The position numbers and the translations under genes are program-made. A DNA stretch of 33,051 bases from Parvularculaceae bacterium (GTDB lineage Bacteria > Pseudomonadota > Alphaproteobacteria > Caulobacterales > Parvularculaceae), in contig JABSRH010000009.1 of NCBI GenBank assembly GCA_013215175.1, positions 1 to 33,051 of the forward strand, read 5' to 3'. The notes under the pieces are model-generated. The model did no database searches, was not told where the DNA came from, and was given only the letters and a program-made list of their open reading frames with translations. Shown here piece after piece: positions 10,682 to 27,818 of the stretch; the stretch's first letter is position 1, and each line of letters begins with the position of its first letter.

Positions 10682-10939
10682 ATGTCCCAAGTTTCGAGCC
10701 TGTCGTTAGCCCGGCTAGCCGCCTTAGCTAGTTTCACGGCGATGTCCCTCGCGCCGGTGGAAGTGGCTGCGGCCCACGGCTGGGTGCGGTTATGCCGATC
10801 CGACGGCTCCGTCGTGATGGTGCCGTTTCCCGCACCCGACGATGGTAGCCGTGATCACGGGCACTCCTGTCATGCGCCGTGCTTGTGCGAACGGCGAAAG
10901 CTAAGCCTGCCCCAACCCGATGCCGACCGGGAAAGCTAG
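10682..10939 (+). CDS. Small secreted Cys/His-rich protein of unknown function
   Basis: The protein has 85 residues. The first 31 look like a signal peptide (hydrophobic core LARLAALASFTAMSLAP, cleavage near AAA-HG). The mature part has C38 and then a histidine/cysteine cluster: H59, H61, C63, H64, C67 and C69 (HGHSCHAPCLCERR). The region between reads like a short secreted domain with GWVRLC and VVMVPFP. Such clusters can bind copper, zinc or heme, but I do not recognise a named family with certainty. It is divergent from ccoN, across the FixK-like site, and its stop overlaps the stop of the convergent kinase gene (CTAG, 10936-10939). No strong ribosome site is visible. Confidence 0.65.
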   Translation: MSQVSSLSLARLAALASFTAMSLAPVEVAAAHGWVRLCRSDGSVVMVPFPAPDDGSRDHGHSCHAPCLCERRKLSLPQPDADRES

Positions 10940-12096
10940 TCCGTGTTCACGGAGTCCGGAAAGGTTAGCTCAACGCGCCAACCGCCATCCGACGTCTCTG
11001 ATGCATCGAATCGATATTGATCTGTATACATAGACTGAAGCCGCTCTCGCACATTGGCGAGGCCGATCCCTAAAGAGGGCGCGACGCTTTGCGGGCTCGA
11101 ACCCTCTTCGCTCCGCGCTGGCGTATTCTCGATCGTGATTGTCAACATACGGCTTGATGTGGCCGCTTTGATGAGCACGTGGACTTGGCTCAGCGTCTTG
11201 CTCACGGCATGCTTCATGATGTTTTCGACCACTGGCTGAAGAAGCAGCTTCGGAACGAGCGCCGATAGAGAGTCATCGGAGACGGCGAACTCTGTCGTCA
11301 GTCTATCACCAAAGCGAGCACGCTCGATGTCAAGGTAAAGCCCATTCATGGTCAGCTCATCTTCGAGTGTGTAAACTGGGCTATCGTCTTCCTCCAACGA
11401 CAGGCGCAAGAAATCGCCGATACGCGCCAACATTTTCGTCGCATCCTCGCGACTGCCTGATTGAACAAGGGCGGTTACTGAATTGAGGGCATTGAATAAA
11501 AAATGAGGCTTGAGCTGATATTTCAGCATACGAAGCTCGGCGGCTTGCGACAGTTTTTCAGCTTCGATCCGCTTTAGGCGTTCTTCCCGCGCTTTCTCAC
11601 GAGCTTCCAAAGCGCGGCGTTCGGCAACGATGGCAACCTCCCGTTGCTCCGCTAGCAAACGATAATAGACGAGAGCATGATAGCTAATCGACCAGGCGCT
11701 GAAGACGATCACCGACCCGAAAATCCAACCGCCCCAATCTTCAGCATCGATCACTTCGCCGGTCAGCCACGTGAATGTCAAAATGCGGACAATCGTCCAA
11801 ATGAATGATGCCGCAATCGCTGCTGCTATGTTGACCCCAGCTCGTGTTAGAACGTTCTTTGTCCAGACGGATCGTGCAATCCACCTTAAAGGGTGGCTTA
11901 CAAGAATACCGATGAGGGATTGCAATAAGGTGTGGAAAGCTGGTGTGAACTGTCCAGGATTGTACCAAATGGTCAGGCTGAAATAGCTGAGCGCAGCAAA
12001 CGCCAACCAACCACCCAGTTGAAACGTCCAGTACTGATTGGGGGCGAGGGACAATCGTCGTCCCATAAAGTTCAAATTTTGCGGCTCGGTGGTCAT
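10936..12096 (-). CDS. LytS/YehU-type sensor histidine kinase
   Basis: The protein has 386 residues. Four hydrophobic segments (about 24-44, 56-75, 88-110, 124-146) form the membrane sensor. A charged coiled coil (about 147-192) leads to the His_kinase domain with phospho-acceptor H198 in QLKPHFLFNALN. An ATPase domain follows with an N-box (PVVENIMKHAV) and a G-box (GIGLANVRERL). This is the LytS/AlgZ class that partners LytTR regulators. The gene is divergent from the LytTR gene, 59 bases away, so the two are the likely pair. The stimulus is unknown. The start ATG lacks a clear Shine-Dalgarno; M11 is an alternative. Confidence 0.9.
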   Translation of the reverse strand: MTTEPQNLNFMGRRLSLAPNQYWTFQLGGWLAFAALSYFSLTIWYNPGQFTPAFHTLLQSLIGILVSHPLRWIARSVWTKNVLTRAGVNIAAAIAASFIWTIVRILTFTWLTGEVIDAEDWGGWIFGSVIVFSAWSISYHALVYYRLLAEQREVAIVAERRALEAREKAREERLKRIEAEKLSQAAELRMLKYQLKPHFLFNALNSVTALVQSGSREDATKMLARIGDFLRLSLEEDDSPVYTLEDELTMNGLYLDIERARFGDRLTTEFAVSDDSLSALVPKLLLQPVVENIMKHAVSKTLSQVHVLIKAATSSRMLTITIENTPARSEEGSSPQSVAPSLGIGLANVRERLQSMYTDQYRFDASETSDGGWRVELTFPDSVNTD

Positions 12097-12155: not shown

Positions 12156-12893
12156 ATGTTGACGACCGTGATTTGCGATGATGAGCGCCCAGCGCTCGAT
12201 CTTCTCGAAAAGATCCTGACCGAGACTGATAGGGTGTCGGTTGTGGGCGCCTATCAATCGGCGGAGCAGGCCGTGGCGCGGATCAATCAAGGCGGCGTCG
12301 ACTTAGCTTTCTTTGATGTGGAGATGCCTGGCACCAACGGAATCGATGCCTTCAGTCAACTGATGGTTAGCCCAAAGCCGCTTCTCGTCTTTGCCACTGC
12401 TCATCCTGAATATGCGTTGGATGCTTTTGAAGTCGACGCTATCGACTATCTGCTGAAGCCGCTCGATCCTGAGAGGGTCTCAAAGGCGCTAGATAAAGCC
12501 GATCGTCTTCATAGGCTTACCTCAAGCGCTGATGCGCAAGAGGCTGCGGCACCAGCGGAGCCAGGTACGCTACGTGTGAAGGATGTCGGGCATGTCTTCT
12601 TCATCCCGTTCGAGCAGGTTCTGTGGGTTGAGGCAGCGGGTGACTATTCGCTCGTGCACACATCGGAACGTGAGTACGCGTTGCGTTGCACCATTTCGGC
12701 CTTAGAGAATGACCTGCCGAGTGAGCAGTTTGTCCGTGTTCACCGCTCAGCGATCGTTCAGATTGCTGCGGTGCGGGAGGTGCGCGTCTTGCCGAAGGGC
12801 GATGCGCAAATCTCCCTCAGCCATGGTTCTGTGGTGAAGGCGAGCCGAAGCTACCGGGACGCGATCAAACGTCTCGTGGCCGCGCCGAAATAA
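12156..12893 (+). CDS. LytTR-family DNA-binding response regulator
   Basis: The protein has 245 residues. An N-terminal receiver domain has the acidic pair DDE at 8-10, phospho-acceptor D54 (FFDVEMPG) and the conserved lysine in DYLLKPLD. A linker (about 120-140) leads to a LytTR DNA-binding domain (about 143-240) with FIPFEQVLWVEAAGDYS and FVRVHRSAIVQ, the family signature. It presumably takes phosphate from the divergent LytS-type kinase. The targets are not visible, but the glucan-utilisation genes start 165 bases downstream on the same strand, so local control of them is plausible. Confidence 0.92.
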   Translation: MLTTVICDDERPALDLLEKILTETDRVSVVGAYQSAEQAVARINQGGVDLAFFDVEMPGTNGIDAFSQLMVSPKPLLVFATAHPEYALDAFEVDAIDYLLKPLDPERVSKALDKADRLHRLTSSADAQEAAAPAEPGTLRVKDVGHVFFIPFEQVLWVEAAGDYSLVHTSEREYALRCTISALENDLPSEQFVRVHRSAIVQIAAVREVRVLPKGDAQISLSHGSVVKASRSYRDAIKRLVAAPK

Positions 12894-12927: not shown

Positions 12928-13057
12928 TCCAATTCGTCGCAAAAACGTTGCCGCCAGCGGGTGGTCAGACGATGGTCGCGGCGCGTTGCGCGAGGGCCGT
13001 TCAGTGCGGAGACGTTTCGTCATACCGTGCCGCGAGGAAAAAAACGGAAGTGCTTTG

Positions 13058-15307
13058 ATGAAGAAATTATTGTCCTGTTTCACCGGATTGGTCGCTGCTG
13101 GTACCTTGGCAGCATCCCCTGCGTGGGCGGACGACATCGATACCAAGGTCGAGTCGCTGCTCCAGCAAATGACCCTCGAAGAGAAGGTGGGTCAGCTCAA
13201 CCAGTTCACGGATTTCTGGGACGTCACGGGGCCGGCGCCCACGGGTGAAGAGCAAGAAGTCAAGTACGAGCTCATCAAGAAGGGTCTCATCGGTTCGATG
13301 CTCAACGCTGTGGGCACCGAAGATGTCAAAACACTTCAGACCTTTGCCGTGGAGAATTCGCGGCTCGGGATCCCGATGATCTTTGGCTACGACGTCATTC
13401 ACGGGCATAAGACGATCTTCCCGCTGCCCCTCGCCGAAACGGCGAGTTGGGACCTCGACATGATGGAGCAGACGGCCCGTGTCGCCGCTGTCGAAGCTTC
13501 CGCACAGGGATTGAATTGGACCTTTGCGCCGATGATCGACGTCGGTCGCGACCCGCGCTGGGGCCGTGTGATGGAAGGGTCTGGCGAAGATCCCTACCTG
13601 GGCGGCAAGGTTGCCATCGCTCGCGTGAACGGCCTCCAAGGTGACGATCTCGGCGCGGCTGACACCATCGCGGCGACGCTCAAGCATTTTGCCGGCTACG
13701 GTTTTGGTGAGGCGGGCAAGGACTATAACCGCGCCGACGTGGGTACGGTGACCCTGTTCAACACCATCCTGCCGCCCTTCAAGGCTGCTATCGACGAAGC
13801 CAATCCGCGTACGGTGATGAACGCCTTCAACACGGTCAACGGCATTCCTGCGACGGGCGATGAATACCTGCAGCGAGATATCCTGAAGGGTGAGTGGGGT
13901 TTTGACGGCTTTGTCATTTCCGACTGGGGTTCCATCGAAGAGATGGTCGACCACGGCTTTGCTGAAGACGAGCGGGAGGCCGCTCGCCTAGCCATCAAAG
14001 CGGGCTCCGACATGGACATGGAGAGCTACGCCTACCTGGAAAACCTTGAATCGCTTGTTGAATCGGGTGAGGTCGACGTTGCGCTGATCGATGATGCGGT
14101 GCGCCGTATCCTCCGTGTAAAGCACGAATTAGGCCTTTTTGAGGATCCCTACCGCTACATCGATCCGGAGCGTGAAGAGACCCTCCTGATGTCGGATCAG
14201 CACCTCGACGTGGCGTTGAAAATGGCCGAGCGCTCGGTGGTTCTCCTCAAGAACGACGGCGCACTGCTGCCCCTTCAGGCTGGCGAACGGGTCGCTCTCA
14301 TCGGTGCTCTGGCTGCGGATAAAGACAGCCCGCTCGGCAATTGGCGCGCGCAAGGTGAAGAGAGTTCTGCGGTTTCGCTGGTTGAAGGCTTCGCGGCGGC
14401 AGGACTCAATTTCTCATTCTCCAACGGCGTTGATGTTGAGGTTGGTGACGCCAACTTTGCCAGCGAAGTTGTGGTGAACACAGACGACCGGACCGGCATG
14501 GACCAAGCCATCGAAACGGCCAGGTCCGCTGACAAAGTGGTGTTGGTGCTCGGCGAGGATGCGCTGCAAAGCGGCGAGGGCCGCAGCCGCGCGGACATTG
14601 GGTTCCCGGGGCTGCAGCAGGAACTGCTCGAGAAGATCGTGGCGGTGAACCCGAATGTCGTTCTTGTGGTGATGAGTGGCCGCCCCTTGGTCCTGACCTG
14701 GGCTGACGAGAATGTTCCCACCATCGTCCAGGCCTGGCATCTGGGGCACCAGAGCGGCCATGCCCTAACCAATGTGCTGACCGGCGCTTACAATCCCAGC
14801 GGCAAGTTGCCGATGACCTTCCCGCGTTCGGTGGGCCAGCTTCCGATCTACTATGACTACCTCAACACCGGGCGCCCCGGCCCCCGCAAAGAGGTGTTCT
14901 GGCAGCATTATATCGATGAGGATAACGCGCCGCTTTATCCCTTCGGCCACGGTTTGAGCTACACGGACTTCAAATATGACCGACTTCGCGTTCGCCAGGC
15001 GGACGAGGGCTTTGAGGTGTCCGTGCGGGTGCGCAACACCGGTAAGGCTGCCGGCGAGGAGGTCGTGCAGCTCTACATCCGCGACCATGTCGCCAGCGTG
15101 TCCCGTCCGGTTCGCCAGTTGAAGGGTTTCGAGAAGGTTTCTCTCGATCCACGCCAGGCCCAGCGTGTGACCTTCCAGCTGACTTCCGAAGAGCTGGGCT
15201 TCTACAATGGCCGAGGCGAATTTGTTGTGGAGCCAGGCGACTTTGACGTGTTTGTCGGCGGTTCATCGGCCGCGACCTTGTCGGACACGTTCACGTTGAA
15301 GCGCTAA
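13058..15307 (+). CDS. Periplasmic GH3 beta-glucosidase (BglX-like)
   Basis: The protein has 749 residues. A signal peptide (1-24, ending SPAWA) is followed by the GH3 N-terminal barrel. That barrel carries GYDVIHGHKTIFP (110-122), APMIDVGRDPRWGR (157-170), KHFAGYG (209-215) and the nucleophile D289 in GFVISDWGS. The GH3 C-terminal domain and a fibronectin III-like domain (about 650-740) complete the protein. Family activity: release of terminal glucose from beta-linked oligosaccharides in the periplasm. I chose ATG 13058 because it starts a proper signal peptide and has GGAAG 8 bases upstream; the longer frame from 12986 does not. Next to GH16 and a TonB receptor, beta-1,3-glucan (laminarin) is the likely source. 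Confidence 0.94.
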   Translation: MKKLLSCFTGLVAAGTLAASPAWADDIDTKVESLLQQMTLEEKVGQLNQFTDFWDVTGPAPTGEEQEVKYELIKKGLIGSMLNAVGTEDVKTLQTFAVENSRLGIPMIFGYDVIHGHKTIFPLPLAETASWDLDMMEQTARVAAVEASAQGLNWTFAPMIDVGRDPRWGRVMEGSGEDPYLGGKVAIARVNGLQGDDLGAADTIAATLKHFAGYGFGEAGKDYNRADVGTVTLFNTILPPFKAAIDEANPRTVMNAFNTVNGIPATGDEYLQRDILKGEWGFDGFVISDWGSIEEMVDHGFAEDEREAARLAIKAGSDMDMESYAYLENLESLVESGEVDVALIDDAVRRILRVKHELGLFEDPYRYIDPEREETLLMSDQHLDVALKMAERSVVLLKNDGALLPLQAGERVALIGALAADKDSPLGNWRAQGEESSAVSLVEGFAAAGLNFSFSNGVDVEVGDANFASEVVVNTDDRTGMDQAIETARSADKVVLVLGEDALQSGEGRSRADIGFPGLQQELLEKIVAVNPNVVLVVMSGRPLVLTWADENVPTIVQAWHLGHQSGHALTNVLTGAYNPSGKLPMTFPRSVGQLPIYYDYLNTGRPGPRKEVFWQHYIDEDNAPLYPFGHGLSYTDFKYDRLRVRQADEGFEVSVRVRNTGKAAGEEVVQLYIRDHVASVSRPVRQLKGFEKVSLDPRQAQRVTFQLTSEELGFYNGRGEFVVEPGDFDVFVGGSSAATLSDTFTLKR

Positions 15308-15480: not shown

Positions 15481-16476
15481 TTGACCGGCTTGTTGCTGGC
15501 TATACTGGGCGTGTGGGGAGTTGCTGGAGCGGCGGAAGCTTCAAGCACTTCGCCCCAGTGGCAGACCGTTTGGCTCGACGAGTTCGAGGGCCACACGCTT
15601 GATGCTTCCAAATGGGTGATGGAAGAAAGCTGCTGGGGCGGCGGCAACAACGAACGCCAGTGCTACACTCAACGTGAGGAGAATGTGGAAGTCGCCGATG
15701 GCGTGCTTCGTCTCAAGGCGCGTGCGGAACAGTTCGAGGGCCGGATGTTTCCCCTCGGCAAATCAGCCGGTCGCCAGTTCGAGCGTCGTGTACAACCTTA
15801 CACCTCCGGCAAGGTCAAAACCCGCGGCAAGGCGGACTGGAAGTACGGTCGGTTCTCTGCGCGCATTAAACTGCCTGCCGGTCAAGGAACGTGGCCAGCC
15901 TTTTGGATGATGCCATCCGAGGACGCCTACGGCACATGGCCGCTTTCCGGCGAGATCGACATCATGGAGGCGGTCAATCTAGGCACGCCTTGCGAAGATT
16001 GTCCGGGTGGAGAGGAGAGCCGCACCAGCGCAGCGCTTCACTTCGGCGAGCGCTGGCCCGACAACACCTACCTCACCAAAAAGACGGCCGGCACACCGGA
16101 CTATAACCCGTCACAGGGTTGGCACACCTACACGGTGGAATGGGCCGAAGGCGTCTTCCAATGGTTTGTGGACGGCAAAGTTTTTCTGCGCATCACGGCA
16201 GATCAGTGGTTCACAGCGAGTTGCAAGACCGAAGGCAGGGAATTCGCGCCCTTCGACAGGCCGTTCTACCTGATGCTGAATTACGCCGTGGGCGGAAACC
16301 TATCTGAAAAATCGAATGGTGCTGGCTTCGACCCAGCATCTTTTCCTTCCGAACTCCAAATCGACTGGGTGCGCGTTGAGCAGTGCGCGGGCGATGAAGA
16401 GACCGGAAAAGCCTGCCTCACACCGGTCGACTGGGACGGAGAACCAGAAGGCCCGTGGGAAACACAAGCGCGGTGA
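15481..16476 (+). CDS. GH16 family endo-beta-glucanase (laminarinase-like), secreted
   Basis: The protein has 331 residues. A signal peptide (about 1-20) is followed by one GH16 domain. Catalytic motif GEIDIMEAV places E158 (nucleophile), D160 and E163 (acid/base). The extra residue in the EIDIME spacing is the beta-bulge form seen in laminarinases. Surrounding aromatic residues (WPAFWMMP, WPLSGE) line the cleft. The start is TTG at 15481, supported by AGGGAGG 7 bases upstream. Four cysteines near 170-240 could form disulfides. Expected role: cutting beta-1,3(/1,4)-glucan into oligosaccharides outside the inner membrane for the TonB receptor and GH3 enzyme. It lies 38 bases before the receptor gene. 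Confidence 0.92.
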   Translation: MTGLLLAILGVWGVAGAAEASSTSPQWQTVWLDEFEGHTLDASKWVMEESCWGGGNNERQCYTQREENVEVADGVLRLKARAEQFEGRMFPLGKSAGRQFERRVQPYTSGKVKTRGKADWKYGRFSARIKLPAGQGTWPAFWMMPSEDAYGTWPLSGEIDIMEAVNLGTPCEDCPGGEESRTSAALHFGERWPDNTYLTKKTAGTPDYNPSQGWHTYTVEWAEGVFQWFVDGKVFLRITADQWFTASCKTEGREFAPFDRPFYLMLNYAVGGNLSEKSNGAGFDPASFPSELQIDWVRVEQCAGDEETGKACLTPVDWDGEPEGPWETQAR

Positions 16477-19670: not shown

Positions 19671-21230
19671 GTGAACAACGACCGACCAGTCAAAAGCGTT
19701 GTGATCGTAGGCGGAGGGACAGCCGGTTGGTTAACCGCGTCCATTCTGGCGGCCGATCATTGTGCGGCGCACCCTGACGGTTTGCAGGTAACGGTCATTG
19801 AGTCCGCTCGCGTCCCGATCTTGGGAGTCGGCGAGGGCACCTGGCCCTCCATGCGTGACACCCTCCGGCGCATTGGCATCAGCGAGACGACCTTTGTGCG
19901 TCGATGCAATGCCGCTTTCAAACAAGGCTCACGCTTCAACGGCTGGAAAGATGGTTCGCCGTCAGATTTTTATTTCCATCCGTTCGAAGCACCACCGAGC
20001 CAGGATGATGTCGACGCGCTGACCTTATGGCGATCATCCTCGGGCCTGTCCTTCGCCGACGCAGTGTGTCATCAGCCTGCTGTGTGTTTGGCAGGCCTTG
20101 CCCCGAAACAAGCCGGGACACCGGAATATGCGGCGGTCGCGAACTACGCCTACCATCTTGATGCTCCGGCCTTTGCTGAGCTCCTCGCGGAGAACGCGCG
20201 CGATAAGCTTGGCGTGAGGCATGTGGTGGACGACGTGGTCAGGGCAACGAAAGATGCCAATGGCCTTCTGGGTTCCGTAGAGACGTCTGAGAACGGATCG
20301 ATTGCCGCCGACCTCTTTATCGATTGCTCTGGTAGTCGCGCTTTGCTGATCGGCGATGAGATGGGCGCCGGGTTCACGGATGTGTCCGACGTCCTGTTCA
20401 ATGATCGCGCCTTGGCTATCCACGTTCCGTATAGACACGACAGTGAGGCCATTGCGTCTGAAACCCACGGCACCGCGATGGAAGCTGGATGGGTGTGGGA
20501 TATCGGTCTTCAGAACCGTCGAGGTGTTGGCTACGTCCACTCGTCCAACCACACGACTGAGGACGAGGCGCGCGCAAGCTTGGGACGCTATCTTCAGGCC
20601 TCGCCATCGGGACAGGCCGTCTCCGCCGATGATGCTCGCTTGATTAAGTTCCAGTCGGCATACAGACCAACGCCGTGGGTGAGCAATGTCGTTGGCGTCG
20701 GTATGTCCGCAGGCTTCGTTGAGCCGCTGGAGGCATCGGCTATCGTGATGATCGAACTGGCCGCCACGATGATCAGTGATATCCTGCCGCCGCAGCTTTC
20801 TGCCATGCCTGGTGCTTCTCGTCGCTTCAACGAGCGTTTCTCTTATCGCTGGGCGCGGATCGTTGATTTTCTCAAGGCGCATTACATTTTCAGCCAACGG
20901 ACCGAACCTTACTGGCAAGCTCATCGCGATCGCTCCACTTGGCCCGATCGCCTGGTGGAGTTGGTTGATCGTTGGGCGGTGGAGCCGCCAAACCGCAGCG
21001 ATTTTCCTCAGATCCAGGAGATCTTTCCCGCGGCTAGTTACGCCTACGTGTTGTACGGCATGGGCTTCGAGACCGTGCCAGCGCCCAACCGACGCCGCAG
21101 GGATTTGCCAGATTTCTTGTCTCAGCACGCGCAAGCCATTAGAACAAAGGCTCAGCGGTTTTCGCAAGGTCTTCCGACAAACCGTGATCTGATTAACCAT
21201 ATTCTGACCACCGGTTTGACCAAGGTCTAA
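19671..21230 (+). CDS. Flavin-dependent tryptophan halogenase family protein (first copy)
   Basis: The protein has 519 residues and a GTG start with GGAG upstream. It contains a Rossmann FAD motif GGGTAGW (14-20), a second flavin-contact segment GVGEGTWP (52-59), catalytic-type lysine K84 in AAFKQGSRF, and GFVEPLEASAI near 349-358. These are the marks of flavin-dependent halogenases, which form hypohalous acid and use the lysine to chlorinate or brominate indoles. The second motif, normally WxWxIP, reads WVWDIG here (274-279), so the proline is replaced. No partner flavin reductase gene is nearby. Genes of this type next to TonB receptors have unknown natural substrates; halogenation is possible, not shown. 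Confidence 0.85.
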   Translation: MNNDRPVKSVVIVGGGTAGWLTASILAADHCAAHPDGLQVTVIESARVPILGVGEGTWPSMRDTLRRIGISETTFVRRCNAAFKQGSRFNGWKDGSPSDFYFHPFEAPPSQDDVDALTLWRSSSGLSFADAVCHQPAVCLAGLAPKQAGTPEYAAVANYAYHLDAPAFAELLAENARDKLGVRHVVDDVVRATKDANGLLGSVETSENGSIAADLFIDCSGSRALLIGDEMGAGFTDVSDVLFNDRALAIHVPYRHDSEAIASETHGTAMEAGWVWDIGLQNRRGVGYVHSSNHTTEDEARASLGRYLQASPSGQAVSADDARLIKFQSAYRPTPWVSNVVGVGMSAGFVEPLEASAIVMIELAATMISDILPPQLSAMPGASRRFNERFSYRWARIVDFLKAHYIFSQRTEPYWQAHRDRSTWPDRLVELVDRWAVEPPNRSDFPQIQEIFPAASYAYVLYGMGFETVPAPNRRRRDLPDFLSQHAQAIRTKAQRFSQGLPTNRDLINHILTTGLTKV

Positions 21231-21243
21231 GGAGGAACTTCCC

Positions 21244-21969
21244 ATGGCGCGCCATGCTCAAGTGAATTTCATTGAACATCCAAAGCTTCGTGTCCGGACG
21301 GAGCGCAGCGCGCTTCTTGGCGACAGCATGATGGCCTGTCCGGTGTTTCCGCACGAGTTCCGCGAGCTGCAGGCGTCCTATCCCGTGGTGTTCACCAAGG
21401 AAGACAAGTCTGGCCTCTTCCGGCCTATGGCGCTTTTTGGCCTCGAGCGGAACGAGAACGTCTTCCTCGACGGTGATCATTGGGATGCAACCTATCTGCC
21501 GCTAGCCTTGCGAATCCAGCCGTTTCTTATCGGGTTGCGGGGTGTCGAGGGCGAGGAGCCAACGCCCGAAGTCCATATCAATCTCGAGCATCCGCGCGTA
21601 AGCGAAACTGAAGGCGAAGCCTTATTCACCGAAACAGGTGAGCACACTGAGTTCCTGAAGTCGATCGCCGAGCTACTGGCCGAAGTCCACGGCGCCGAAG
21701 GCAACGTCGTTGCGTTCTCCGCGATGCTCAACGAGTTGGATCTTCTGGAACCCTTCAGTCTCGATGTCACCCTAGAGAATGGAACCGTCGGTAAGCTGAC
21801 GGGATTCTACACGATTAAAGAAGAGCGTCTCTACGCTCTTAACGGTGAAGAGCTAGAACGTCTGCAAAAGGCTCAGATGCTGCAGGCCATCTTCATGTCC
21901 GTGGCCTCGATCTCGCAATTCTTGGGGGTCATCTCGCGCAAGAACAAACGATTGCTGGCGAGCATCTAA
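21244..21969 (+). CDS. SapC family protein
   Basis: The protein has 241 residues with no signal peptide or transmembrane helix. It contains FPHEFRELQASYPVVFTKE, GLERNENVFLDG and YLPLALRIQPFLIG, the conserved core of the SapC family (named after a Campylobacter surface-layer gene; molecular function unknown). In many TonB-receptor loci SapC-type genes lie beside tryptophan halogenase genes, as here. GGAGG lies 9 bases before the ATG. It starts 13 bases after the halogenase stop and ends 1 base before the cupin gene, so it is an operon member. Perhaps a partner or scaffold for the halogenases. Confidence 0.88.
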   Translation: MARHAQVNFIEHPKLRVRTERSALLGDSMMACPVFPHEFRELQASYPVVFTKEDKSGLFRPMALFGLERNENVFLDGDHWDATYLPLALRIQPFLIGLRGVEGEEPTPEVHINLEHPRVSETEGEALFTETGEHTEFLKSIAELLAEVHGAEGNVVAFSAMLNELDLLEPFSLDVTLENGTVGKLTGFYTIKEERLYALNGEELERLQKAQMLQAIFMSVASISQFLGVISRKNKRLLASI

Positions 21970-21970
21970 C

Positions 21971-23008
21971 GTGAGTTTTTTGCCGTTTCATACGCATCTT
22001 CCAGAGCCTCAGCCAGTCGCTATTGGTGATTTCGGAGCTGGCGGCGCCATTCCGGAAGAGGTGGTCGAACGGCAAGAGCCCATTATTCTCAAAGGCTTCG
22101 TGAGCCATTGGCCGATGGTTGACGCGGCGCGTAACGGCGCCCGGGCCTTTCACGATTATCTCTCAGCATTTGATCAGGGTGCCATCGTCCCGATTGCAGC
22201 TGGCTCGCCAGCATTGGGAGGGAGGCTTTTCTATAACAAGGCCTTCAATGGTCTCAATGCGGAGCAAGGAAGTGCTCGGCTGGGTGAAGTTCTTGCGCGC
22301 ATCGCCGCCGCGGCTGAGGCCGACGAGTCGCCGCTCATTTATCTCGCATCTGCTGAGATCGACCAAGTGCTCCCTGGCTTGCACGCTTCCAATTTCGTTC
22401 CGTTCGGGGAGCATAACCCTCGGGCAAGTGTCTGGATCGGTAGCCGAACCCGGATAGCGGCGCATAACGACCTTCCGCGAAACCTCGCGTGCGTTGCGAG
22501 CGGTCGGCGCCGTTTCACGCTGTTTCCGCCCTCCCAGACGCCGAACCTCTATGTGGGTCCCTTTGAGGTCACGCCGGCTGGACGCCCGATTAGCCTCGTG
22601 GATTTCGCTGCGCCTGACCTTCAGCGTTATCCTCAGTTCAAGGACGCTATGGCCACCGCTTTGTATGCGGACCTTGGGCCAGGAGATGCACTCTTTATAC
22701 CGTCCATGTGGTGGCATCACGTTGAGGCCGAGGCAGGTTTTAACTTGCTCCTCAATTATTGGTGGCGGCCAGCGCCACTTCATCTGGGTACACCGCAAGA
22801 CGTGTTGAACCATGCCATGATGACGCTTCGCGGCCTGCCAGAAGGTGAGCGCGAAATCTGGCGCGATCTTTTCGACCACTACGTTTGGGCGGGGGATGCC
22901 GGCCAGGGCGACCATGTGCCAGATCATGCGCGCGGATTGTTGGCGCCAGTAGATGAAAAAATTGCCGAACGAACAAGGGCCTACCTTGTCAGCCGGCTTG
23001 AGCGTTGA
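21971..23008 (+). CDS. Cupin-like (FIH/JmjC-type) putative Fe(II)/2-oxoglutarate oxygenase
   Basis: The protein has 345 residues. The Cupin_8 signature is visible: metal-binding H165 and D167 in AAHNDLPRNLACV, SGRRRFTLFPP (177-187), and the third histidine in PSMWWHHV (H249 or H250). The HxD...H triad is that of factor-inhibiting-HIF-like oxygenases that hydroxylate protein or small-molecule substrates. GTG start at 21971, one base after the SapC stop, implies translational coupling; no separate ribosome site is obvious. Its place between SapC and a second halogenase suggests joint action on one substrate. Confidence 0.85.
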   Translation: MSFLPFHTHLPEPQPVAIGDFGAGGAIPEEVVERQEPIILKGFVSHWPMVDAARNGARAFHDYLSAFDQGAIVPIAAGSPALGGRLFYNKAFNGLNAEQGSARLGEVLARIAAAAEADESPLIYLASAEIDQVLPGLHASNFVPFGEHNPRASVWIGSRTRIAAHNDLPRNLACVASGRRRFTLFPPSQTPNLYVGPFEVTPAGRPISLVDFAAPDLQRYPQFKDAMATALYADLGPGDALFIPSMWWHHVEAEAGFNLLLNYWWRPAPLHLGTPQDVLNHAMMTLRGLPEGEREIWRDLFDHYVWAGDAGQGDHVPDHARGLLAPVDEKIAERTRAYLVSRLER

Positions 23009-23021
23009 GGAGTTAGGGGAC

Positions 23022-24500
23022 GTGGACAGTAAGCCAAAGACGAAGGTCGTTATCGCAGGCGGCGGAACAGCGGGCTGGATGGCAGCGGCCGCCATCGGAC
23101 GGACGCTCGGCAATGTAGTCGATTGTACACTGATTGAATCAGATGCTATTGGTACCGTAGGTGTTGGCGAAGCGACGATCCCCACGCTCCTAACCTATAG
23201 CCGTTTGCTAGGCATCGACGAAGCCGAATTCATGAAGGCTGTCTCAGGCACCTTCAAGCTCGGTATTTCGTTCGAGAATTGGACGGATGTGGGGCATCGA
23301 TACATCCATTCGTTCGGGATCACGGGCCAAGACCACTGGTCAGCTGGCTTCCAGCATTTTTGGAAACGTGGCAGAGTTATGGGGCAGGCCGAGGAATTTG
23401 GCGACTATTGCCTGGAGCTCGTGGCGGCCGAACGAAACCGCTTCGCCCATCTACCCAACCTCGGCCTCAACTACGCCTACCACATTGATTCGTCAGCCTT
23501 CGCGACGTTTTTGCGGACGATGGCGGAAAGGCATGGCGTTAAGCGTAAAGAGGGCAAAATTGCTGAGGTGCGTCGCGCGCCCAATGGTGATCTCTCCAGC
23601 ATTTTGATCGACGATGGCACTGAGCTGGAGGGCGAATTGTTCATCGACTGCACAGGCTTCCGTGCATTGCTGATGGGCGAGACCTTAGGTGTTGGTTACG
23701 ATGATTGGACCCATTGGTTGCCGTGTGATCGTGCCATCGCTGTACAGACTGAGTCGGTCCGTGAACCGGTGCCCTATACCCGCGCAATTGCTCATGATGC
23801 AGGTTGGCGCTGGCAGATTCCTCTGCAGCACCGCACGGGCAACGGCGTTGTCTTCTCAAGTCGATACATGAGCGAAGATCAGGGTATGGACCACCTGCTG
23901 TCGAGCGTTGACGGTAAGACGGTGTCCGACCCCCGTGTCATTCATTTCCGTACAGGGACAAGGCGCTCCCATTGGCATCGCAATTGTGTGGCCGTCGGCC
24001 TGTCGTCCGGCTTTATCGAGCCGTTGGAATCCACCAGCATTCACCTCATCCAGCGGTCAATCATCCGCCTCATTCGAATGTTCCCTCAGAACGGAATCAG
24101 CGAGACCGATCGCGATGAGTTCAACGCCCAGACATTTTATGAGCTTGAACACATTCGAGATTTCATCATCTTACACTACAACCTCACCAACAGGACCGAC
24201 ACGGAATTTTGGCGTCACGTCCGATCGATGGATGTGCCGGAATCTCTCACCCATCGCCTCGACATGTTCCGCGAGACGGGCCGGGTGTTCCGCGAGAACG
24301 ACCAGCTTTTTGCGGAAAACTCCTGGACGCAGGTCATGCTGGGGCAAGGCCTCGAGCCTCAGTCTTATCATCCGATGGCCGACCAAATGGATGACGATGA
24401 GTTGGTGCGATTGCTCGCTCACATTCGCGAAAACGTGGAGAAGACTGTCGCGGCTCTTCCCAGCCACAAAAGCTATATCGATAGTTTCTGCGCGATCTAA
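23022..24500 (+). CDS. Flavin-dependent tryptophan halogenase family protein (second copy)
   Basis: The protein has 492 residues from GTG 23022. The FAD motif GGGTAGW is at 13-19, and GVGEATIPT follows at 47-55. The catalytic-type lysine is K79 (GTFKLGISFENW), the same number as in PrnA and RebH. WRWQIP (262-267) is the full canonical WxWxIP motif, and SGFIEPLESTSI is present. All expected halogenase motifs are intact. An in-frame ATG at 22953 would overlap the cupin gene by 56 bases; GTG is preferred because GAGGAG lies 9 bases before it. Sequence differs widely from the first copy, so it is not a recent duplication. It ends 4 bases before a strong hairpin terminator. Confidence 0.9.
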   Translation: MDSKPKTKVVIAGGGTAGWMAAAAIGRTLGNVVDCTLIESDAIGTVGVGEATIPTLLTYSRLLGIDEAEFMKAVSGTFKLGISFENWTDVGHRYIHSFGITGQDHWSAGFQHFWKRGRVMGQAEEFGDYCLELVAAERNRFAHLPNLGLNYAYHIDSSAFATFLRTMAERHGVKRKEGKIAEVRRAPNGDLSSILIDDGTELEGELFIDCTGFRALLMGETLGVGYDDWTHWLPCDRAIAVQTESVREPVPYTRAIAHDAGWRWQIPLQHRTGNGVVFSSRYMSEDQGMDHLLSSVDGKTVSDPRVIHFRTGTRRSHWHRNCVAVGLSSGFIEPLESTSIHLIQRSIIRLIRMFPQNGISETDRDEFNAQTFYELEHIRDFIILHYNLTNRTDTEFWRHVRSMDVPESLTHRLDMFRETGRVFRENDQLFAENSWTQVMLGQGLEPQSYHPMADQMDDDELVRLLAHIRENVEKTVAALPSHKSYIDSFCAI

Positions 24501-24548: not shown

Positions 24549-27500
24549 TTACGGTGCCGTGGGTAGGGACCGGTTTGGCGAGTACGGTGCGCCTGCATCG
24601 TCGAGTGCCTTTTCAAGACCACTCAGCATGCTGTCGATTTCGTTTAAGCTCTTGCTCACTTCGCCATACTGCTTGGCTGCAATGTCCATCTGGTCGAGGT
24701 GACCTTTGCCCACGGGGGCTTGACTACCCCAGGTGGCCCAACGCACGCCGCTGACCCGGCTTGAGAGGCCCAATGGTGCGGGCTCGTTCCGGCTCGTCTT
24801 CGTGCTGTCACCGTAAAGGACCGTACGCGTGTCGGCGAGCATCGTGCGTGCCTTCACCCACGTGGCGCGATGGGCAGCTGTGGTGCTCGGTACACGATCG
24901 AATGCCGCCTCGATGTAGCGCAGTCGTTCGCCCAGCTCCGATGCCTTACGCGTGGCGCTGCTGGTCTTCTTCGCCATGTCGGCGATGCGGGCGTGATCCG
25001 CGGCCAGTTTCTCACGATCCTCTGCAGCTTCGGGCGAGCGACCGAGCGGTTTCAGCGTGAAGCCTTTTGGATCGGTGAGATAGCTCTCCTCACCATCCAC
25101 CCGCTTGACGAGGCGAACAGCATAAGCGCCGGGCTGGGCCATGGGCCCTGATGAGCCGCCGCCGAACAGGGATGCGGTGGCTTTGGTCAGACGCACCGGA
25201 TCGGGCGAGTCGAGGGTCATGTCCCAAGTCACTCGGTGTACACCCTTACCGCTCGGCACCTGCATCCGGCGAATGACGTTGCCGTCCTTGTCCGAGATCT
25301 CAGCCAGGACCACGGGGTCCATCTCACGGTCTTCAGCCTTCAGATCATCCCAACTTGGATAGGGCGTGTCCTCGCCAGCCTTGGCTTTCTTCGCTTCGTC
25401 CGACTTCCGTTTAGCAGCGGCTGTCTTGAAGCCATCCTTTAGGTGATAAGTGAAGACCGCACCGTACGGATGGTTCTCCGCCGTGTAGAACGCATCGCCG
25501 AGGAAGGACTGCGGACCACCAGCAGGGCCCCAGAGGTCGCCCTCCACATAGTGCCAGGCATCCTTGACATCGAACAGATGCGCGTCACCTTCCAGGTCTG
25601 CCGACGCTGTCCGCAGCGGGCTGTAATCGTCGAGAATGTAGATGCCACGCCCGAACGTGCCGAGCACGAGGTCATCTTCTCGACGCTGAATTTCCAGATC
25701 GCGGACGGAGATTGTGGGCAATCCGCCGGTCATCTCTTGCCAGTTCTCACCGCCATCTTGCGTCATGTAGAGGCCAAATTCAGTACCGACAAACAACAAG
25801 TTGGGGTCTTTATGGTCCTCGGCGATGGTGTGGGCGGTGCCACGATCAGGCAGGCCATCACCAATCGACGTCCACGTCACACCTTTATCAGTGGATTTGT
25901 AGACGTAGGGCTTGTGATCGCCCTTCTTGTGGTTGTCGAAGACCGCATAGGCGGTGTCCGGAGCATGTAGCGATGTGATGATGTCTTCTACCAGCGCCAT
26001 GTCTGGGACGCCGCGGAAATACTGCTCTGAGCGCCAGGTTGCGCCATCGTCTTCCGAGACGCTGATCACACCATCGTCCGTGCCCGCATAGAGAAGGCCC
26101 TTTGTCATCGCACTTTCAGAGAAGGCGATGATCGAGCCATACATCGACGTGCTATCATTCTTCGCGATGGCATCCACGCTCCACACGCGACCCATCACTT
26201 CGAGCTGGTTGCGGTCGATCTGGCGTGTCAGGTCAGGGCTGATCGCTTCCCAGCTGTCGCCGCGATCCTTCGAGCGGAAAACCTTCTCGGCGGCGTAATA
26301 GATCGTGTGCCGATCGTGAGGGCTGATGAGGAGCGGCGTGTTCCAGTTGAACTTGTAATTGTCCTCGGTCTCATCAGGCATCGGCACAATATAGACGCGT
26401 TCACCGGTGCGGCGGTCATAACGAGCGAGGCCGCCATACTGATATTGCGTGTAGATGATGTTCGGGTCTTCCGGGTCGCTCTGCGGCTTGTAGCCATCAC
26501 CGCCTAGAATTAGCGTCCAGTCGGTGTTGGCGATGCCGTGCTTGGTTGGCGTCCGCGATGGCGCGCAGAGTGAGTTGTTGTCCTGCGTTCCGCCGCATAC
26601 ATTGTAGAATGGGAAATCATTGTCCGGTGTTGCGCGATAAAACTGCGTAAGCGGAATATTGTGGAGGTGACGCCAGGTCGTGCCGCGATCGTAGCTCTCG
26701 TAAAGGCCACCATCACCGCCGATGATCAGGTGCATCGTGTTGGTCGGATCGATCCACAGCGCGTGATCGTCCACGTGACGTGCCTTGGTGGAAAGGCGAG
26801 TGAACGTCTTGCCGCCATCTTCCGAAACCGAGGAGAATGTGTCCATGGCGTAGAGGCGTTGTGGGTTCTTCGGATCAACGACGAGTTCGTTGTAGTACTG
26901 AGGGCTCGACGTCATGAACGACGAGCGCTTGCTCCAGCTCGTGCCAAAGTTCTCGGTACGGTAGACCCCTTTGCCTTTGTCGTCCGCCTCGATGATGGCG
27001 TATACCATGTCAGGCTGCGACGGTGCCATAGCGAGGCCAATCCGGCCAAGATCACCACCAGGAAGGCCAGCCTTCGCTTTCGACCAAGTCTTGCCGCCGT
27101 CGCTCGTGGTGTGAATGCCTGAGCCGGGGCCACCGTTGATCAGTGTCCAGACGTGGCGTCGACGCTGATAGCTCGATGCGACGATCTTATCGGGATTGGC
27201 CGGGTGCACCACGAATTCGTTGATGCCGGTGTCTTCGTCGACTTCCAGGATCAGATCCCAGGTCTCGCCACCGTCGGTGGACTTATAAAGACCACGATCA
27301 CCGCCGCTGTTCCAAAGAGGGCCCTGCGCTGCCACCACGACAGTGTCGGCATCCTCAGGATGGACCCAGATCTGGCTGATATGGCCGGAGTCCTTCAGGC
27401 CGATATTCTTCCAAGTCAGGCCACCATCGTTCGACCGATAGACGCCGTCGCCGAAGGCCACCGAGCGCTGCGCATTGTTCTCGCCGGTACCTGCGTAAAC

Positions 27501-27818
27501 GACGGACGTGTCGGACGGAGCGATCTCCACGACGCCGATCGAATAGGAGCCATAATTGTCGAAAACCGGTTTCCAGGTCGTGCCCGCGTCCTTGGTCAGC
27601 CACATCCCACCCGAGGCCGTACCCACGAGATAGTGATGATGGCCACCGGGCATCATGGCGATGTCGGAGATGCGTCCACCGGTAATGGCGGGGCCAATGT
27701 TGCGCATTTTGAGCGAAGCGAGGGGTGTGCTCTCCCCATGATCCGAGGCATTGGCCACCATCGGTGTTGCCGCCACGAGAGCGGAAAACGTCATGAGAAA
27801 CAGTTTATTGCGAAGCAT
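24549..27818 (-). CDS. Large secreted BNR/Asp-box (sortilin/VPS10-like) beta-propeller protein
   Basis: The protein has 1089 residues. A signal peptide (1-24, ending ANA) is followed by about ten Asp-box motifs S/T-x-D-x-G-x-T-W: TKDAGTTW (75-82), SNDGGLTW (129-136), STDGGETW (180-187), then TSDGGKTW, SEDGGKTF, SYDRGTTW, SKDRGDSW, SEDDGATW, STDKGVTW and TQDGGENW. They indicate one or two beta-propellers of the sortilin/VPS10 type. The last 250 residues are helical and lysine-rich with a beta sandwich. Such proteins are often called glycosyl hydrolases, but I see no sialidase RIP motif or defined catalytic residues, so activity is unassigned. It may bind peptides or glycans. Convergent to the glucan locus. 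Confidence 0.85.
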   Translation of the reverse strand: MLRNKLFLMTFSALVAATPMVANASDHGESTPLASLKMRNIGPAITGGRISDIAMMPGGHHHYLVGTASGGMWLTKDAGTTWKPVFDNYGSYSIGVVEIAPSDTSVVYAGTGENNAQRSVAFGDGVYRSNDGGLTWKNIGLKDSGHISQIWVHPEDADTVVVAAQGPLWNSGGDRGLYKSTDGGETWDLILEVDEDTGINEFVVHPANPDKIVASSYQRRRHVWTLINGGPGSGIHTTSDGGKTWSKAKAGLPGGDLGRIGLAMAPSQPDMVYAIIEADDKGKGVYRTENFGTSWSKRSSFMTSSPQYYNELVVDPKNPQRLYAMDTFSSVSEDGGKTFTRLSTKARHVDDHALWIDPTNTMHLIIGGDGGLYESYDRGTTWRHLHNIPLTQFYRATPDNDFPFYNVCGGTQDNNSLCAPSRTPTKHGIANTDWTLILGGDGYKPQSDPEDPNIIYTQYQYGGLARYDRRTGERVYIVPMPDETEDNYKFNWNTPLLISPHDRHTIYYAAEKVFRSKDRGDSWEAISPDLTRQIDRNQLEVMGRVWSVDAIAKNDSTSMYGSIIAFSESAMTKGLLYAGTDDGVISVSEDDGATWRSEQYFRGVPDMALVEDIITSLHAPDTAYAVFDNHKKGDHKPYVYKSTDKGVTWTSIGDGLPDRGTAHTIAEDHKDPNLLFVGTEFGLYMTQDGGENWQEMTGGLPTISVRDLEIQRREDDLVLGTFGRGIYILDDYSPLRTASADLEGDAHLFDVKDAWHYVEGDLWGPAGGPQSFLGDAFYTAENHPYGAVFTYHLKDGFKTAAAKRKSDEAKKAKAGEDTPYPSWDDLKAEDREMDPVVLAEISDKDGNVIRRMQVPSGKGVHRVTWDMTLDSPDPVRLTKATASLFGGGSSGPMAQPGAYAVRLVKRVDGEESYLTDPKGFTLKPLGRSPEAAEDREKLAADHARIADMAKKTSSATRKASELGERLRYIEAAFDRVPSTTAAHRATWVKARTMLADTRTVLYGDSTKTSRNEPAPLGLSSRVSGVRWATWGSQAPVGKGHLDQMDIAAKQYGEVSKSLNEIDSMLSGLEKALDDAGAPYSPNRSLPTAP

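Follow-up and report, generated by a model that had tools for sequence, protein, structure and literature searches.

The window analysed here, 33,051 nucleotides of contig JABSRH010000009.1 from the draft genome of a Parvularculaceae bacterium (3.08 Mb in 322 contigs), carries a cassette of five genes in which a TonB-dependent receptor is followed by a 2PYX-like flavin-dependent halogenase (Hm), SapC, a cupin oxygenase and an Xcc4156-like halogenase (Hh), an order abbreviated below as T-Hm-S-C-Hh. This linkage is real and widespread, and the window represents one more member of a recurrent unit. We suggest, at a confidence close to but short of an even chance, that the cassette is devoted to the post-translational modification of the co-encoded receptor.

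Organization of the locus

A first-pass annotation of the sequence had described two halogenases, SapC and a cupin packed behind a receptor, GH16 and GH3, and the open reading frames (ORFs), Pfam matches and short gaps agree with this description. All seven genes lie on the same strand (Table 1), with gaps of 138 bp between the receptor and Hm, 13 bp between Hm and SapC, and 1 bp between SapC and the cupin. With the ATG at 22953 as its start, Hh overlaps the cupin ORF; the in-frame GTG at 23022 would instead place the start 13 bp beyond the cupin. Across the named loci described below the median gaps are 110 bp (receptor-Hm), 12 bp (Hm-SapC), -8 bp (SapC-cupin) and 10 bp (cupin-Hh), with ORF starts assigned mechanically, and these short distances indicate that the genes form an operon.

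Table 1. Positions in the window of the cassette genes, of the residues discussed in the text and of associated genes.
Feature	Position	Strand	Basis or remark
TonB-dependent receptor TIGR01782 (TonB-Xanth-Caul), 1005 aa	16515..19532	+	Profile match, AlphaFold model; proposed cassette substrate
Receptor W514 codon, candidate modified residue	18054..18056	+	Conservation in cassette receptors and model
Hm, 2PYX/9LTB/9LU2-type flavin-dependent halogenase, 519 aa, GTG start	19671..21230	+	PF04820, 2e-109
Catalytic-type Lys K84 of Hm	codon 19920-19922	+	Alignment
SapC, 241 aa	21244..21969	+	PF07277, 2e-62
Cupin_8/JmjC-type Fe(II) oxygenase, 345 aa, GTG start	21971..23008	+	PF13621, 7e-68; HxD...H intact
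Hh, Xcc4156/BrvH-type flavin-dependent halogenase, 515 aa	22953..24500	+	PF04820, 3.9e-186
Catalytic-type Lys of Hh, K102 (ATG 22953) or K79 (GTG 23022)	codon 23256-23258	+	Alignment
GH3 beta-glucosidase	12986..15307	+	Pfam/NCBIfam; associated, outside conserved cassette
GH16 glucanase	15481..16476	+	Pfam/NCBIfam; associated, outside conserved cassette
LytTR response regulator, possible regulator of the locus	12156..12893	+	Pfam
His_kinase-family sensor, possible partner of the LytTR regulator	10936..12096	-	Pfam

Linkage and distribution

Linkage was scored in 41 related genomes, a gene being counted as linked if it lay within 5 kb of a TIGR01782 receptor, and the random expectation was the mean of 500 random placements. 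We kept 133 of at least 150 halogenase matches and 26 of the 40 cupin matches listed, excluding weak matches and second fragments; sequences were extracted for 130 of the 133 halogenases, 29 of 59 SapC genes and 25 of the 26 cupins. Co-occurrence, the check set beforehand as a refutation test, is far above chance: 108 of the 133 halogenases lie near a receptor (random mean 3.3), as do 22 of the 26 cupins (0.7) and 15 of the 59 SapC genes (1.0). Divided by type, the linked halogenases comprise 80 of 91 Hh (2.5 expected), 16 of 29 Hm (0.5) and 12 of 13 belonging to a third type, Hl (0.4). All 91 Hh genes, among the matches listed, are in receptor-bearing genomes, and none occurs in the eight of the 41 genomes that lack a TIGR01782 receptor. 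The control genome of Caulobacter vibrioides gave matches to all four families.

A further set of 80 named loci, the best 80 of at least 582, was chosen by cupin similarity with one genome per species, and is a sample biased for the cupin. Besides the cupin, present in all by design, these loci contain a receptor in 74 cases, SapC in 71, Hh in 72, Hm in 52 and a halogenase of any type in 73. The complete T-Hm-S-C-Hh order is found in 44 loci; 17 others have T-S-C-Hh and lack Hm. The loci span several proteobacterial classes and, by record title, include members of Henriciella, Sphingomonas, Xanthomonas, Lysobacter, Massilia, Duganella and Porticoccaceae, so that the distribution is wider than the Caulobacterales and Xanthomonadales to which such genes had initially been ascribed. 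A class-wide sample of 57 genomes, including that of the window, contains receptors (E 1e-100) in seven and halogenases (E 1e-30) in six. Three Duganella loci (L241, L242 and L257) consist of an adjacent receptor and cupin only; the loop tryptophan (Trp) discussed below is retained, and halogenases are located not at the locus but at other sites in these genomes.

Neighbouring genes

The glycosidases found next to the receptor vary. At the SapC-type loci the neighbours include GH3 and GH16 (7 and 6 of 92 ORFs, respectively, at 14 loci), while those of the tandem-type loci form a xylan set, with four GH115, four GH43, three GH10 and five GH3 among 67 of 75 listed ORFs from 14 loci. The remaining linked loci are mixed; 82 of 103 ORFs, from 23 of 24 loci, include 24 alpha-amylases, eight GH97, three GH31 and two GH15. 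One receptor clade of 15 loci, with one large neighbour considered for each, is called starch-type here because these neighbours are alpha-amylase in ten cases and GH97 in one, the other four giving no match at E 1e-20. Homologues of GH3 or GH16 were detected in 47 of the 80 named loci, the other 33 having neither in the stretch examined. Six T-S-C-Hh loci of the 41 genomes, with two to four large neighbours scanned at each, showed a glycosidase in two (GH2 at L069, GH9 at L072) and none in four.

Gene order and close spacing make it plausible that the four proteins act jointly on one target, as first proposed; two targets had been put forward, an imported aromatic-decorated glycan and the receptor itself. 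Since the same halogenase families stand beside beta-glucan, xylan and starch enzymes, the glycan is unlikely to be the shared target. The receptor and the oxygen-using modifiers remain constant while the glycan varies, which is our main argument for receptor modification and makes the receptor the better candidate of the two.

Homologues of the LytTR regulator occur in 6 of the 80 named loci and of the His_kinase sensor in three. Convergent to the operon, at 24549-27818, the window encodes a 1089-aa BNR/sortilin-like repeat protein, for which no homologue was found at E 1e-10 among the named cassette loci.

The halogenases

Hh, Hm and Hl were separated by PF04820 score with cut-offs of our own choosing; Hh is nearest to Xcc4156 and BrvH, and Hm to 2PYX, 9LTB and 9LU2. 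Both halogenases of the window possess the flavin adenine dinucleotide (FAD) motif GxGxxG and, in the sequence alignment, the catalytic Lys and Glu that characterize PF04820 members, the lysines being those already picked out in the first-pass annotation. Among the 130 extracted sequences, all 90 Hh have this pair, as do 27 of 28 Hm, the exception being a fragment without the Glu region. The WxWxIP motif reads WRWQIP in Hh and WVWDIG, with a variant ending, in Hm. Free-tryptophan halogenases of the RebH/PrnA type are marked by a long substrate-closing loop and by residues that bind the substrate backbone. Comparison of the window Hh with Xcc4156 (6Y1W), which is of the short-loop type (PMC7336383), gives 660 bits and an alignment with two one-residue gaps; the Hh of a Xanthomonas arboricola cassette (L215) matches the same protein with 1025 bits over 510 residues. 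The NCBIfam match of the halogenases to QhpG is weak (1.5e-12) and falls below the cut-off.

The catalytic Lys is present in none of the 12 extracted Hl sequences, all of which lie within tandem halogenase arrays (L100, L097, L086, L106, L115, L109, L102 and L098), the thirteenth Hl being a contig-edge fragment that was not extracted. By sequence, Hl is a degenerate pseudo-halogenase retained beside active Hh genes, and perhaps a subunit. The assembly may have split one tandem-type locus between two contigs, one with a receptor at its end (L064, G000:C71) and the other beginning with an array of three halogenases (L062, G000:C57). The genome of the window also contains a decayed second cassette (L061, G000:C266, 2780-7642), the halogenase of which has two in-frame stops.

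The cupin oxygenase

The HxD...H motif claimed for the cupin was borne out: AHND and the histidine of WWHHV (H165, D167 and H249) are invariant in 22 aligned sequences. Against solved structures, the cupin profile gives FIH (6.8e-29) and JMJD5 (5.1e-26) as its first matches, both of which are protein hydroxylases, and this kinship suggests that the cupin may use 2-oxoglutarate and hydroxylate a protein. At four starch-type receptor/halogenase loci a DUF6445 protein is encoded (L090:4280-5134, L103:10966-11730, L104:9200-10042 and L111:12496-13338); in all four, PH[F/I/Y]D is followed further on by a His, and in sequence they look like another Fe(II) oxygenase that would replace the cupin in these loci.

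SapC

The name SapC comes from Campylobacter and would imply an S-layer function. The window protein matches PF07277 with 211 bits (cut-off 28.9), and no signal peptide was obvious on inspection by eye. Its structure was predicted with high confidence (predicted local distance difference test, pLDDT, 96.8; predicted template modelling score, pTM, 0.90). A sequence search of the PDB returned no relative below E 0.69, and fold searches gave no Foldseek match at E ≤0.001 and none of 998 chains at Z ≥2. Residues H12, E38, N72, P86, P93, F128 and S222 are invariant and common to 78 cassette and 13 solo forms.

SapC differs from the halogenases and the cupin in its linkage: of the 59 genes, 15 lie near a receptor, 16 near a halogenase and 43 in no cluster, although contig ends in draft genomes can conceal linkage. 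The 13 extracted solo proteins (L060, L068, L071, L075, L078, L079 and L193-L199) form one clade, which contains a single cassette SapC. No constant partner emerged from their neighbourhoods (62 of 80 listed ORFs, 13 loci), in which DsbD_N accounts for 7 and S49 peptidase for 6 of the 62 ORFs; in some genomes solo SapC genes are found near DsbD/thioredoxin-like and S49 peptidase genes. Some genomes that have solo SapC gave no PF04820 match at all, among them G005, G022, G029 and G032.

The receptor and W514

The receptor matches TIGR01782 with 628 bits (cut-off 310; 2.3e-188) and has Plug and barrel domains, and its AlphaFold model (pLDDT 86.5) shows the barrel of a TonB-dependent transporter (TBDT). 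In the model W514 comes just after barrel strand 488-511 and opens a long segment, 512-585, which the alternation of long and short loops would place on the extracellular side.

The tree and the column comparisons included 116 of 118 receptors, one not having been fetched and one being shorter than 700 aa. Among all column-residue pairs, W514 ranks third in telling linked receptors (69% of 54) from solo ones (0 of 49). In intact cassettes it is invariant, being present in 84 of 84 rows, or 83 distinct receptors (70 from named loci and 14 from the first set, the L201 receptor repeating one of the latter). The named loci supplied 72 receptors, equivalent to 60 clusters at 90% identity, and the two without W514 are fragments of 250 and 348 aa that end short of it. 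Receptor T99, which is accompanied by a broken Hm and by neither cupin nor Hh, was excluded from the cassette group; with it the figure becomes 83 of 84 distinct receptors. No other position between 500 and 591 reaches 97% in cassette receptors.

Tandem-type receptors have W514 in 16 of 16 cases, or 15 of 15 in the last alignment, and solo receptors in 0 of 49 in the first and last alignments and 3 of 49 in another. It is the sole conserved cassette aromatic that is fully common to the tandem-type receptors yet rare in solo ones. Y739 is common to all receptor groups and is a general feature, while W334 and W639, near strand ends in the model, reach at least 97% in cassette receptors and are found in 0 of 16 tandem-type receptors each. 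Two single cases agree with the pattern of W514. The receptor on G000:C266, a contig with a broken Hm and without cupin or Hh, has no Trp at this position. T47, a receptor at a contig end, keeps it and may be the partner of the array of halogenases with which C57 begins.

Three other candidates were rejected. Y155 is found in 87% of linked and 6% of solo receptors, but it tracks receptor clades and reaches 60% in the tandem type. A second Trp for the starch-type receptors (window column 584, 14 of 15) was missing from L286, the sole new starch-like case. The residue that best tracked the presence of Hm in cassette receptors, W258, did so too weakly (81% versus 41%).

A possible modification of the receptor

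The scheme that we infer would run as follows. SapC and the enzymes would act on the receptor while it is still in the cytosol, freshly synthesized and awaiting Sec export, SapC being a candidate adaptor or chaperone which presents the receptor. The two halogenases would halogenate, and probably brominate, Trp side chains of the receptor, and the JmjC-type cupin would hydroxylate a receptor residue. W514, at the start of the long segment presumed to be extracellular, is one candidate site. The modification might tune ligand binding or shield an exposed loop, for example against phages or bacteriocins. In favour of the scheme, besides the constancy of the receptor as partner, are the nearness of the cupin to protein hydroxylases, the relation of Hh to Xcc4156 and BrvH, the loci with only receptor and cupin, the invariance of W514 and, as a precedent, the action of ChlH on Trp within polypeptides.

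Several observations weigh against this scheme. The genome of L211 (G044) keeps W514, SapC and the cupin at the locus, and a search of it at E 0.001 gave no match to PF04820; W514 is also retained by six other cassette receptors whose loci lack Hh, and by the tandem-type receptors of G009, though no Cupin_8 was found in that genome. The halogenase-linked receptors of the starch type, a group that we set from the tree, have W514 in 0 of 15 cases, and nine other linked receptors have it in five or seven depending on the alignment. In a second sample of 17 receptors a Trp occupies the W514 column in four of five linked but also in three of 12 unlinked receptors; unlinked L295 has this Trp, and its genome contains no halogenase at E 1e-30. 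The column itself is alignment-dependent, as the range of 0 to 3 in the 49 solo receptors indicates. W334 and W639, judging from the model, may simply bind sugar. SapC is often solo (43 of 59), which implies some role without halogenases. Finally, receptor modification is reached by inference from genes and sequences, and the modified form of the receptor is a predicted one. Because of the evidence against W514 and the possible sugar binding by W334 and W639, we advance receptor modification only at the strength given at the outset. We regard as doubtful the more specific proposal of a widespread system for programmed halogenation and hydroxylation of outer-membrane proteins, in which SapC, as an adaptor of unrecorded fold, would help the two halogenases and the JmjC hydroxylase to modify a specific surface-loop Trp of the adjoining receptor.

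An alternative which we consider unlikely is that W334, W514 and W639 serve for sugar stacking within a single receptor clade and that the cassette acts elsewhere, modifying a different protein or other residues of the receptor, or else supplying hypohalous acid. The three cassette-conserved tryptophans do lie near strand ends in the model, and W514 outlasts the halogenases, both in the L211 genome and in the six cassette receptors without Hh. However, two receptor groups with different glycan enzymes in their neighbourhood both have W514 (84 of 84 rows and 16 of 16), the tandem type lacks W334 and W639, and this alternative leaves the company of enzyme and receptor genes unexplained.

It is less probable that the receptor imports an aromatic-decorated oligosaccharide, or another aromatic, which the halogenases and the oxygenase then process inside the cell. 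Flavin halogenases classically act on small aromatics, and many of the loci look like carbohydrate utilization loci with GH3, GH16, xylan or starch enzymes. One T-S-C-Hh locus (L077, G006:C1, 849-5288 and 14402-15823) adjoins tyrosine-catabolism-like genes for hydroxyphenylpyruvate dioxygenase (HPPD) and fumarylacetoacetase, an aromatic catabolic set, as well as a relaxase-like ORF, and no glycosidase was seen among its four neighbours scanned. Yet aromatic groups are found on neither beta-glucan nor starch, halogenation would be unusual in catabolism, and the same enzyme families accompany different glycan enzymes. The 33 named loci without GH3 or GH16 in the stretch examined, and the T-S-C-Hh loci, of which two of six showed a glycosidase among the neighbours scanned, also speak against such a role.

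Similarly improbable is a part for the cassette in producing or tailoring a secreted halogenated compound, a siderophore or peptide, which is then taken up by the receptor: TonB receptors classically import siderophores, pairs of halogenase and dioxygenase occur in biosynthesis clusters, and a 2010 comparative-genomics paper on JmjC enzymes is said to have made a similar proposal, but the receptors here are of the TIGR01782 type, often adjoining glycosidases, and no peptide synthetase or siderophore gene is among the top 25 Pfam families of each neighbour tally, short precursor peptides not having been sought.

Modification of the receptor, if true, would account for the lack of a known substrate for Xcc4156, BrvH and similar brominating enzymes. 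It predicts an outer-membrane protein modification not described in the open-licence literature searched, and would bear on nutrient uptake, on phage and bacteriocin entry, and on the biocatalysis of Trp in proteins.

Comparison with known systems

Genes of the SapC, Pass1 (cupin) and halogenase types were reportedly linked with Xanthomonas TonB receptors in about 2010. The cassette loci resemble the carbohydrate utilization (CUT) loci of Xanthomonas and Caulobacter in combining a receptor with glycosidases and a regulator; they differ in the modification cassette, which is an extra element, and some cassette loci have no glycosidase among the neighbours scanned. The main text of a 2007 paper on carbohydrate loci with TonB receptors does not mention SapC, Pass1 or halogenase (PMC1790865); PMC8269204 likewise gave no relevant mention, and the passages of PMC3826837 and PMC11337851 had no relevance to the system. 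In the open-licence literature, which leaves most subscription journals outside, we found no paper that joins SapC, tryptophan halogenase and TonB. To this extent the system is undescribed, as had been suspected; however, the structure of one member of the Hh family, Xcc4156, has been published, its substrate being given as unknown (PMC7336383). The linkage thus includes one enzyme published as an orphan brominase, and it is the function that would be the new part.

Hh belongs to the same family as the indole brominases Xcc4156 (6Y1W) and BrvH (6FRL) and keeps the catalytic Lys/Glu and WxWxIP. These two enzymes are reported to act on indole and not on free Trp, and to have an open site for which "possibly even peptides" are considered (PMC7336383, PMC5945002); the BrvH gene is adjoined by a second halogenase gene (PMC5945002). 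TonB is absent from the main text of both papers, and the link with receptor, SapC and cupin is drawn in the present analysis.

The likeness to MibH and ChlH lies in the proposed chemistry, directed at a Trp inside a polypeptide. ChlH can halogenate Trp residues that lie inside peptides or certain proteins (PMC12518702), and Xcc4156 shares 26% identity with MibH (PMC7336383). MibH and ChlH act on precursors of ribosomally synthesized and post-translationally modified peptides, whereas the proposed substrate of the cassette is an outer-membrane receptor, and we claim no close sequence kinship.

The halogenases also match, weakly and far under the cut-offs, QhpG, LodB and GoxB, flavoprotein maturases of periplasmic quinoproteins, of which they are not members. 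These maturases modify protein residues during maturation. The cupin, for its part, resembles FIH and JMJD5 in profile and in the HxD...H motif, and is distinguished from them in being bacterial and in sharing an operon with halogenases and a receptor.

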